DNA of 64,000 bases from Alphaproteobacteria bacterium (GTDB taxonomy: Bacteria > Pseudomonadota > Alphaproteobacteria > Micavibrionales > Micavibrionaceae): NCBI GenBank assembly GCA_017302165.1, contig JAFLCW010000001.1, positions 992,001 to 1,056,000 of the forward strand, read 5' to 3'. Position 1 is the first letter of the stretch. Every line of letters starts with the position of its first letter. Made by a program: the position numbers and the translations under genes. Below, piece by piece: positions 52,652-59,234 of this stretch. The notes beneath the pieces were generated by a model that worked only from the letters and a program-made list of their open reading frames with translations, did not search any database and was not told the origin of the DNA.

Positions 52652-52687
52652 TCCGGCGATTTTGTACTAAAGTCGCCGGATATTTTT
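52652..52687 (+). terminator. hairpin between rpmF and plsX
   Basis: The perfect inverted repeat TCCGGCGA / TCGCCGGA (52652-52659 and 52673-52680) with a 13-base loop is followed by TATTTTT. It is a partial terminator or attenuator that could set a higher level of L32 than PlsX. Confidence 0.6.
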
Positions 52688-56309: not shown

Positions 56310-57704
56310 TCACGTCTTGGGCGGTGTTTCCAACTTTCGGTACAAGGTGGATTTCGCCACGCCTAATTCATCTGCCGCCCGGGAAACATTGCCGCCGCAA
56401 TAATCAATCGCATGGCGTATGGCTTCGATTTCAATAACCTCGAGTGTTTTTAACTTTTGGTTCTGCGTCAAAAATTGAGACGTTCCCTTGGTATCGGATG
56501 TGCGCATAGACCCGATGGATCCAGACAGCGATGCTGGCGAAAAATCATCAATTTGTAATTCAGGATGGTCTGATAACACCATGGCGCGGTGAATTTTATT
56601 TTCCAGTTCTCGGACGTTTCCGGTCCAAGGTTGCTGTTGTAAATGTGCCATGGCTTCATCGGAAATACGTCTTAAATGCCGTTTTTCCTGCGCGGCAAAG
56701 CGGCGGATGAAATGATAAGCCAGTGCCGGAATATCTTGAGCCCGATCACGAAGCGCAGGCATGTGAATCTGAAGAACGTTCAACCGGAAAAAAAGATCCT
56801 CACGAAAACGCCCGGCCTTGACGTCTGCGGACAGATCCCTGTGTGTGGCGGCGATAATGCGTACATCCACCGGAAGGGTTTGTCCGGCGCCAACAGGCTC
56901 AACCTCTTTTTCTTGAAGAACACGAAGTAATTTCACTTGAGCGTCTGCGGGTAATTCTCCCACTTCATCCAGAAAAATAGTGCCCCCGTCGGCTTCACGG
57001 AATTTACCCATAGCCTTGGTCACCGCCCCCGTGAAAGCTCCTTTTTCATGGCCAAACAGTGTGCTTTCAACCAATTGTTCGGGGATCGCCCCGCAGTTAA
57101 TAGCCACAAAAGGTTGATGATTGCGCGTGCTTTCACCATGGATCGCCCGAGCCAGAATTTCTTTGCCCGTACCGGTTTCGCCACTGATCAAAACAGGGAT
57201 GTGGGTGGTCGCCGCTTTTCGCGCTACGGTGACGACGTTAGACAAACCGCCCTCATAACCCACCATATCTTCAAATCGTTGCGTCCCGTGTGTTTGCCGT
57301 GTCAGGCGCTGAACTTCGTGCTCAAGATTCTGGCGTTTAAGTGCATTTGTCACACTGACGATAAATCGTTCGGGTTCAATTGGTTTTGAAATAAAATCGG
57401 CGGCGCCGCGTTTCATGGCCTCAACGGCGTCCTGCGTTTTTTGTGAAGCCGTGATCATGATGACGGGGATATCAGGGCGGATGTCCTGAAGGGCGTCCAT
57501 GAATTCAAACCCCGACATTTTCGGCATGTGCAAGTCAAGTATGACGGCGGCAATGGAACGCGCCTGATCCTGACGGATCAGGTCAAGCGCGTCTGGACCA
57601 TTACTGGATTCCATGACCTTAAGCGGAAGCCGTTTCAAAGCCAGCATCGAAAGGCTTTTTCGTTGTGAGGAATCGTCATCAATGATCAGAAGGGTTTGAG
57701 CCAT
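56310..57704 (-). CDS. NtrC-family sigma-54-dependent response regulator
   Basis: The 464-residue activator has a receiver domain with D57 (AVILDLHMPKMSG), an AAA+ domain with Walker A GETGTGKE, the sigma-54-contacting loop GAFTGA and Walker B GGTIFLDEVGE, and a Fis-type helix-turn-helix at the end (NVSRAADELGVAKSTLYRKL). The ATG at 57704 starts directly before the receiver; the frame extends to 57818 without family similarity. It is divergent from the 57940 operon, which has a near-consensus sigma-54 promoter, so it is the likely activator of that promoter. It converges on tRNA-Pro. Confidence 0.93.
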   Translation of the reverse strand: MAQTLLIIDDDSSQRKSLSMLALKRLPLKVMESSNGPDALDLIRQDQARSIAAVILDLHMPKMSGFEFMDALQDIRPDIPVIMITASQKTQDAVEAMKRGAADFISKPIEPERFIVSVTNALKRQNLEHEVQRLTRQTHGTQRFEDMVGYEGGLSNVVTVARKAATTHIPVLISGETGTGKEILARAIHGESTRNHQPFVAINCGAIPEQLVESTLFGHEKGAFTGAVTKAMGKFREADGGTIFLDEVGELPADAQVKLLRVLQEKEVEPVGAGQTLPVDVRIIAATHRDLSADVKAGRFREDLFFRLNVLQIHMPALRDRAQDIPALAYHFIRRFAAQEKRHLRRISDEAMAHLQQQPWTGNVRELENKIHRAMVLSDHPELQIDDFSPASLSGSIGSMRTSDTKGTSQFLTQNQKLKTLEVIEIEAIRHAIDYCGGNVSRAADELGVAKSTLYRKLETPPKT

Positions 57705-57892
57705 GAAGAATGCCACCAGCGCGGAATAGAGGGGTAGAAAAACACAGACGCCATAAGATGTTAGACGCTCTTTGCGACCACGCCAAGGGCAGGCGTTCGA
57801 AATTGCGACACATCTCATCAGTTTATTTTGAATTTGATCTAAATTTCTTGCAGTGCCGTCATCTTAAATTATTGAAAAACAATAATAAATTA

Positions 57893-57908
57893 TGGCACAC
57901 CATTTGCT
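57893..57908 (+). promoter_or_regulatory. sigma-54 (-24/-12) promoter of the response-regulator operon
   Basis: TGGCAC-N5-TTGCT at 57893-57908 has the GG and GC elements (57894-57895 and 57906-57907) ten bases apart, matching the RpoN consensus. Transcription should start near 57918, about 22 bases before the ATG. A TATAAT at 57914-57919 lacks a -35 partner. A palindrome TTATTG-N5-CAATAA at 57869-57885 lies just upstream and could be an activator or IHF site. The divergent gene encodes an NtrC-type activator. Confidence 0.75.
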
Positions 57909-57939
57909 ATAACTATAATGGACAAGAGAGGCACAGATC

Positions 57940-58842
57940 ATGCAATACCAGAATATACCGGTTGTCAGTCGATCCGATGAAGCGCTGTATGCCTTGTTAA
58001 AGGAGTTAAAGGAAACAGCCCCATCCACACGTTGCATTGTGCTTCTGTGTTCGCAGATGACCGATCGTCCCGCGGATTGGCTCATGCGTATAGATCGCGC
58101 GGTGAACGAACGGATGGATGAACCGTCAGTTAAGATCCTACAGAGTAGTGATCAGGATGTTTTTATCTTTTCCAAACACGCGACGCATAAAGTTTTTACG
58201 AGTCTCCTCTCCCACCCCACTCTAGACTGGCTGGCTTCCCACGAAGGGAAGCCAGCCGCTTTTTTTGAAGTCGGGTATGACGGTGACTGGATAGCAGGTC
58301 TGATCAAAAACAAAATTTCCGCCCAGCGTGATAGGCTTAGCGAACTTCAGATGCGCGAGCTTGAGGCTCAGTTACGCCGTCGTGAGCTGGCACTGAATGC
58401 TCCCATTCGGATTGATCTTGTTCGTTCCATTGATACGCGCCGAGATAGCCGCGCAGAGCCACATATTCTTGTTGTCGATGACGATCTTTTCACCCAAAAA
58501 GTTGTCCGAAAGGCGATCCCCTCTACACTTGAGGCATCATTCGCGGACTGCGCGGCAAGTGCCTTCATGACGTATGTTCGTCATGCGCCTGACGTGGTCT
58601 TTCTTGATATTGGTTTGCCGGATGTGGATGGCCATAACGTCCTTAATAAAATATTTGAAATGGATCCTCATGCATACGTCATTATGCTCAGCGCGAACGG
58701 CCACCGTGATAATGTTATGAAGGCGATACAAAAGGGCGCCAAGGGCTTTGTTGGGAAGCCCTTTAATACCAGTAAGCTTATCGAATATATCGAAAAATCT
58801 CCCCATATCAGATCAAAACAAAAGAAAGAAGGTCGTGCATGA
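57940..58842 (+). CDS. response regulator with uncharacterised N-terminal domain
   Basis: The 300-residue protein has an unknown N-terminal domain (about 1-130), a short charged coiled coil (about 130-155, QMRELEAQLRRRELAL) and a C-terminal receiver domain with the acidic pair in HILVVDDDLF, phosphoacceptor D223 (VVFLDIGLPDVDG) and K273 (FVGKPFN). There is no DNA-binding output domain, so the N-terminal part is the likely output or partner site. GAGAGG lies eight bases before the ATG. Its ATGA overlap couples it to the next receiver gene. A strong terminator-like hairpin lies inside the frame at 58229-58266, at residues 97-109. Confidence 0.85.
   Translation: MQYQNIPVVSRSDEALYALLKELKETAPSTRCIVLLCSQMTDRPADWLMRIDRAVNERMDEPSVKILQSSDQDVFIFSKHATHKVFTSLLSHPTLDWLASHEGKPAAFFEVGYDGDWIAGLIKNKISAQRDRLSELQMRELEAQLRRRELALNAPIRIDLVRSIDTRRDSRAEPHILVVDDDLFTQKVVRKAIPSTLEASFADCAASAFMTYVRHAPDVVFLDIGLPDVDGHNVLNKIFEMDPHAYVIMLSANGHRDNVMKAIQKGAKGFVGKPFNTSKLIEYIEKSPHIRSKQKKEGRA
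58229..58266 (+). terminator. intrinsic-terminator-like hairpin inside the response-regulator frame
   Basis: A perfect 12-bp stem (GGCTGGCTTCCC / GGGAAGCCAGCC) with a five-base loop is followed by GC and seven T (58260-58266). It meets every formal criterion for a rho-independent terminator although it lies within an open reading frame. Upstream is a C/T-rich stretch (58203-58223) that resembles an anti-Shine-Dalgarno motif. It could attenuate the operon or form the 3' end of a short RNA from the sigma-54 promoter. Confidence 0.6.
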
Positions 58843-59234
58843 CTGTAACCTTTGATAAAAACTTGACCGTGGAGCAGTTAGAAAAAATCTTACCCAAAGT
58901 CCTTTTGATCGAAGACGAACCTTCGACGCGCTGGATTGTGAGAACGGCATTAAAAGATCATTGCTTTTTAGCCACCGCAACAGGTGTTATGGATGGTATC
59001 CGCCGCATAGAAGAATATGTACCGGACGTCATTTTTCTGGATATCAATTTAATAGATGGATCTGGATTTACAATATTGGAATGGGTTGTTCAAAAATTTC
59101 CGCATATGATTGTCGTCATGTTTAGCGGGAATAATGATGTGACGAACATGTCCAGAGCGTTATTGGCTGGGGCTTATGGTTTTGTTTCCAAGCCTTTTCA
59201 AAAAGAAGAGTTGCTGGAATATCTTCATACCTAA
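58839..59234 (+). CDS. single-domain response regulator
   Basis: The 131-residue protein is a stand-alone receiver domain with VLLIEDEPSTRW, phosphoacceptor D68 (DVIFLDINLIDGSG) and K118 (FVSKPFQKEE). A 20-residue N-terminal helix precedes the domain. It overlaps the preceding gene by four bases and is probably part of a phosphorelay, perhaps taking phosphate from the hybrid kinase encoded convergently 12 bases away. Confidence 0.9.
   Translation: MTVTFDKNLTVEQLEKILPKVLLIEDEPSTRWIVRTALKDHCFLATATGVMDGIRRIEEYVPDVIFLDINLIDGSGFTILEWVVQKFPHMIVVMFSGNNDVTNMSRALLAGAYGFVSKPFQKEELLEYLHT

Follow-up and report, generated by a model that had tools for sequence, protein, structure and literature searches.

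Inside a response-regulator gene of a Micavibrionaceae bacterium we identified signals that quite probably give rise to a sigma-54-dependent small RNA by termination within the gene, the full-length mRNA being made by read-through. The gene lies in the window, which is the whole analyzed stretch of 64,000 nucleotides of contig JAFLCW010000001.1 (Table 1). Comparison of related sequences shows promoter, C-rich motif, stem and U-tract to be conserved together as one RNA module, with or without the protein. On balance, though with less assurance, we lean towards seeing it as a family of small RNAs not described before, sigma-54-dependent and acting in trans, which one alphaproteobacterial family carries within a response-regulator gene and which was set free several times as the coding part decayed. 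The core of this idea, a sigma-54-driven short RNA ending in frame with the regulators made on read-through, comes from the first-pass annotation of the window; it gains support, at the sequence level, from stem covariation, a peak of synonymous conservation, conserved promoters and four copies without a coding gene. The length of about 350 bases given there for the RNA agrees with the distance from promoter to U-tract.

Table 1. Coordinates of features in the window, and copies of the module outside response-regulator genes (last four lines)
Feature	Position	Strand	Sequence or size	Basis or remark
NtrC-type sigma-54 activator gene (receiver, AAA+, Fis-type HTH)	56310..57701	-		Pfam; divergent from host gene
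AT-rich element shared with relatives	57871..57883	+	ATTGAAAAACAAT	Same or similar before the promoter in L100, L103, L104, L106
Sigma-54 promoter	57893..57908	+	TGGCACACCATTTGCT	Close consensus match; conserved upstream of orthologs and out-of-gene copies
Predicted short RNA	57919..58266	+	~350 nt	Putative start to U-tract end, from promoter and terminator positions
Response-regulator CDS hosting the predicted RNA	57940..58842	+	300 aa	Pfam, homologs, structure model
C-rich motif	58204..58218	+	CTCCTCTCCCACCCC	Variant of family motif TTTTAGCCCACCTATCCC; candidate pairing site
Terminator hairpin	58228..58258	+		Sequence, fold rank, covariation, synonymous-shuffle test
U-tract	58260..58266	+	T7	Sequence; most relatives have CTTTTTGA here
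Second receiver-domain protein	58839..59234	+		ORF overlaps first stop by 4 bases; Pfam
L231 (G087)	Divergent to NtrC gene		TGGCACGCCATTTGC	Predicted RNA ~115 nt
L232 (G103)	Divergent to NtrC gene		TGGCATGGCTATTGC	Predicted RNA ~420 nt
L257 (G071)	Divergent to NtrC gene		TGGCACGCTATGTGC, then TTTTTAGCCCACTTAGCCCTAAACTCGG, hairpin, T8
L230 (G097)	Elsewhere in genome		TGGCACGCCCCTTGC	Predicted RNA ~290 nt, T7

The host ORF is a real gene, as full-length homologs occur across the family and the order; the continuing 300-codon frame around the hairpin, claimed earlier, is thereby established. Its product has a receiver domain at residues 176-284 (Pfam) and a predicted structure with a mean pLDDT of 91.7. 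For residues 1-150 (57940-58390) the Pfam search returned no match. This N-terminal domain is conserved among homologs. The fold predicted for it bears a weak resemblance to GGDEF/ferredoxin-like domains (best E 0.038), and at the place where GGDEF would sit relatives have HDND-like residues. The initial contig search with the single host protein as query gave 0 matches; the family search found the N-terminal domain in 31 genomes. Synthesis of the second receiver protein should depend on read-through, and further downstream of its gene lies a convergent hybrid kinase.

The hairpin, TGGCTGGCTTCCC-ACGAA-GGGAAGCCAGCCG, is followed by a single C and the T7 tract. Its arms (58229-58240 and 58246-58257) form 12 Watson-Crick pairs, or 13 if the outer T-G pair is counted, around the loop ACGAA; hairpin and T-tract together reach from codon 97 into codon 109. 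A stable G+C-rich stem thus stands directly before a U-tract, as in intrinsic terminators, and the perfect stem, five-base loop and T7 described earlier at 58229-58266 hold in both coordinates and pairing. With -26.9 kcal/mol it ranks first among 385 terminator-like hairpins in a census of 1.2 of the 2.0 Mb of the source genome, taken as stretches and with crude ORF calls, so that its earlier placing among the best terminators in the window extends to a much larger region. The runner-up on the sense strand within an ORF is imperfect and reaches -17.4 kcal/mol. None of 2000 synonymous recodings of the window peptide folds as well as the real hairpin (z -5.0). Two other hairpins were noted in passing. 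One, with 13 pairs at 52652-52680, is the other strong terminator-like hairpin that the scan of the region gave; the second, a perfect 12-bp hairpin with a T-rich tail (-23.1) at G000:C1:763648-763678 (-), is antisense to a 1.7-kb ORF and is a possible antisense terminator.

The first-pass annotation had also remarked on a pyrimidine run just before the hairpin. This run, CTCCTCTCCC at 58204-58213, is a variant of a motif that recurs in relatives, usually as CCCACCU, and the C-rich motif of the window is the most divergent one in the family.

Conservation of these elements exceeds what the protein requires. Among the genes of the 31 genomes with the N-terminal domain, the stem is found at the same codons in 21 orthologs from 11 genera, and its sequence varies: most relatives have GCCAGCC...GGCTGGC, and in the window, where the peptide differs, the arms read GGCTGGC...GCCAGCC. 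When the stem structure is counted in 19 sequences, 95.2% of its cells pair and 8 of 11 stem pairs are altered on both sides. The covariation score is 0.465 versus 0.04-0.19 in slid controls, and none of 500 shuffles reaches it. With the protein held fixed, all 17 orthologs that can be tested in this manner, the window included, lie outside their synonymous null distributions (z from -2.8 to -6.0, with no more than 8 of 2000 recodings); the four other orthologs have long or interrupted loops, which the script scores improperly. The U-tract deviates from the prevailing form in a few orthologs (two with CTTTATGA, one with CTTTTCGA, one with the tract lost).

At the codon level, 22 clade members show a peak of conservation at codons ~91-110, where the observed/expected ratio is 1.7-2.9, compared with ~1.1 over most of the rest of the gene and ~1.0, without a peak, in homologs lacking the hairpin. 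The peak begins upstream of the hairpin, at the C-rich motif. Wobble-site conservation is restricted to the RNA part, as in ORF-internal small RNAs of the FtsO type. The Leu codon of the motif is the rare CTA in 11 of 19 sequences (p 2e-10) and that of the U-tract is CTT in all 19; these p-values ignore shared ancestry, but the clade proteins are only ~33-42% identical to the window protein. Smaller synonymous-conservation peaks occur at ~58684 (codon 249) and ~58828 (codon 297), the latter near the start of the next gene. Judged by these comparisons, selection beyond the protein on promoter, motif, stem and U-tract is well supported. The first-pass annotation had named conservation of the hairpin in excess of the protein's need as the sign to look for, and stem-breaking synonymous changes in relatives as the sign against it. 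The synonymous peak and the compensatory pairs supply the former; the opposite of the latter was seen, the stem being kept with differing sequences.

The unit has a sigma-54 promoter of the form TGGCA-N6/7-TTGC (-24/-12), conserved upstream. From its sequence, the AT-rich element before it resembles an IHF site. Most hairpin-bearing orthologs are preceded by a sigma-54 site, an AT-rich IHF-like element and a AACGTTTGATTTTGAGAAT-like element. Counting only homologs whose upstream DNA is present in the data, a sigma-54 site lies near the start in 19 of 20 with the hairpin versus 1 of 10 without (p 6.7e-6). In the hairpin-bearing exception, L118, the site precedes a small ORF and is ~610 nt away from the hairpin on its upstream side, and the hairpin is absent from some sigma-54-driven orthologs (L112, L011 and L015). 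Presence of the module is also strongly associated with the NtrC gene, which occurs in 31 of 104 family genomes (E<=1e-120): 23 of these 31 carry the module, compared with 1 of the 73 others (p 2.5e-15). The divergent NtrC-type regulator therefore probably activates the promoter at 57893-57908.

Other observations concern the same intergenic position. A sigma-70-like match (ATGGCA, spacer of 16, TATAAT; 10/12) at 57892-57919 overlaps the sigma-54 site of the window, and its conservation was not seen. In three genomes of one genus (L239, L241, L252), a different, well conserved stretch, AATGCGGCTGAATGCA...CTACCTCAGCTCTCATAACCTACGTCT... and then a hairpin, follows a sigma-54-like site divergent to the NtrC gene; a further sigma-54 small RNA may be encoded at this place. 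At L253, L266 and L242 a small ORF follows the sigma-54 site divergent to the NtrC gene, replacing or preceding the response regulator.

Covariance models of motif and hairpin (R1, then R2) were searched over the family genomes. Four copies of the module, each with a sigma-54 promoter, C-rich motif and terminator, lie outside any response-regulator gene, and three of the four are divergent to an NtrC gene. L230-L232 were found by R1, which had been built without them; L257 was found by inspection and then included in R2, so its R2 match is not independent. With R1, L232 scores just 30.4 bits (per-genome E 0.05), but it is backed by its promoter and position. At all four loci no continuing response-regulator frame is present. 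L230 retains a remnant of coding sequence that can be aligned with residues 75-105 (E 3.5e-4), and in L231, L232 and L257 a remnant is visible by eye only. At these loci the protein, as read from the remaining sequence, is lost and the RNA module kept.

In G097 the in-gene copy has lost the U-tract and motif, both of which are present in its separate copy, L230. In G053 (L117) the frame has just 146 codons and no receiver domain, with promoter, motif and hairpin kept. Together with the out-of-gene copies, these cases mean that protein and RNA can be lost separately; as the RNA signals are kept where the protein gene decayed, the RNA seems to be of importance apart from the protein. In the NtrC tree the out-of-gene cases fall among the in-gene ones, and many forks are unsupported, so that the tree does not rigorously support a number of independent protein losses. 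Five weak R1/R2 matches (L233 and L300-L303, E 0.003-0.09) have no convincing upstream sigma-54 site, and their count is near chance expectation. R2 gave no match at E<=0.003 in the 384 further genomes that sample the rest of the class, and the module therefore appears confined to one bacterial family.

We considered whether the hairpin could act only in cis, tuning the downstream regulators by translation-coupled read-through, with a functionless short RNA. The position of the hairpin within the operon fits such an attenuator, ribosomes might be slowed by the rare CTA codons that precede it, and ribosome-sensitive terminators are known in coding regions, where those in the later part can be repressed by ribosomes (PMC4824070). 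This explanation is nonetheless rather improbable: promoter, C-rich motif and terminator are kept in four copies without any response-regulator frame, and the conserved motif 5' of the hairpin is not needed by a terminator. The same copies, having no long translatable frame, weigh against control through a non-stop mRNA of the brfA/arfA kind, in which termination in frame would yield a truncated protein tagged by tmRNA and expression would depend on ribosome-rescue status. A stop at 58266 would indeed leave a 109-codon frame without a stop codon, and the brfA coding region holds a functional intrinsic terminator (PMC6881298), but here the terminator comes after only a third of the gene and conserved domains follow, which makes this mode of control very unlikely.

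A reading in which the hairpin stimulates transcriptional slippage or -1 frameshifting on the T-tract, producing a truncated N-terminal protein, has still less to recommend it. The window reads UUUUUUUGA, where a slip of one base (one extra U giving UUU UGA) leads immediately to UGA; that UGA, however, follows from the Phe-Glu codons, and the out-of-gene copies keep the tract without the gene. We rejected this reading since U7 is not conserved, relatives having only five consecutive T and some CTTTATGA. Least credible of all is that the hairpin is due to chance or to a peptide that forces self-complementarity, the T-run being just two Phe codons. The CCAGCC and GGGCTGGC codons do match conserved residues in most relatives, but the stem is lost in synonymous shuffles, and in the window the peptide differs (WLASHEGKPA) and the arms are changed with pairing intact. 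Synonymous shuffles, the synonymous-conservation peak and compensatory changes rule this explanation out unless all the comparative results are artifacts, and the copies outside the gene also speak against it. A palindromic insertion element was likewise ruled out, as the hairpin sequence occurs once in the genome and the protein alignment has no insertion.

For the nested small RNA, we propose that the NtrC-type regulator would drive the sigma-54 promoter and that a share of RNA polymerases would stop at the intrinsic terminator in codons 97-109. The released RNA would carry a 3' module composed of the C-rich, single-stranded, anti-Shine-Dalgarno-like motif and the terminator, and would pair through this single strand, probably regulating other mRNAs. 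Polymerases reading through would yield the mRNA for both receiver-domain proteins, and read-through might be favored, for example, when a closely following ribosome covers the hairpin. The parts of the scheme that we infer are that polymerases terminate in vivo and how efficiently, that ribosomes exert control, and that the RNA acts in trans and on which targets. A target pilot on the start regions of the bacterium's own genome gave no signal: the mean duplex energy was -8.7 for its own seed versus -9.6 for shuffled seeds, and the NtrC start region was unremarkable. This negative pilot counts against the scheme, as do the divergent motif of the window, the sigma-54-driven orthologs that have no hairpin, and the possible repression by ribosomes of a terminator placed so deep in a coding sequence (PMC4824070).

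Few functional small RNAs are on record from inside ORFs, and how they originate is unclear. The genomes of this one family show intact dual-use genes, genes minus the RNA and RNA copies minus the protein side by side, so the origin of small-RNA genes from coding genes becomes directly testable. If the RNA was in fact set free repeatedly by coding decay, these genomes document how coding genes gave rise to stand-alone small-RNA genes via a dual-function stage.

As far as tested, the module belongs to no Rfam family. The Rfam search of the window found only tRNAs, and that of related loci at E<=1 nothing relevant. Judging by titles and abstracts, the papers found to name both Micavibrio and small RNA seemingly do not deal with Micavibrio small RNAs. 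The alphaR8 family (MmgR/SisA-D, RF00519) is similar in that a single-stranded anti-Shine-Dalgarno motif, through which these alphaproteobacterial RNAs are thought to pair, precedes a Rho-independent terminator (PMC12559287). Its core single strand is UUUCCUCCCU, whereas the motif here is CCCACCU or CUCCUCUCCC, accompanied by a sigma-54 promoter and a coding host gene. Membership was rejected: the best score, 25.1 bits, is below the 41-bit Rfam cut-off, which is exceeded in none of the 104 family genomes, and such scores occur at background level. B. subtilis brfA, grouped here with E. coli arfA, shares a functional intrinsic terminator within the coding region, but it has 71 codons and its terminator serves trans-translation control (PMC6881298); here the terminator is one third into a 300-codon gene, away from the 3' end, and the product is a receiver-domain protein, not a rescue factor.

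Closer in layout is FtsO, a small RNA inside ftsI of E. coli, described in 2021 as the first ORF-internal small RNA with a shown regulatory role (PMC7815308). There, too, one DNA stretch encodes part of a protein and a regulatory RNA, and wobble conservation reveals the RNA. FtsO lies deep in ftsI and has unclear ends, whereas the present RNA shares the sigma-54 promoter of its host gene, is bounded by an intrinsic terminator within that gene and also occurs in out-of-gene copies. The proposed regulatory design resembles that of the Vibrio Qrr small RNAs, sigma-54-dependent RNAs with a terminator that are controlled by the NtrC-type response regulator LuxO (PMC10162802). The linkage of a sigma-54 promoter to an NtrC-type activator gene is the same; the Qrr RNAs are free-standing genes, unlike this RNA, which most carriers have inside a coding gene, and neither a covariance-model match nor another sequence relation was found between the two. 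Overall, the module appears to represent a new family of RNAs whose dual-use arrangement is unusual, and the analogy suggests an NtrC-type/sigma-54 small-RNA circuit in Micavibrio-like bacteria that is comparable in design to LuxO-Qrr.
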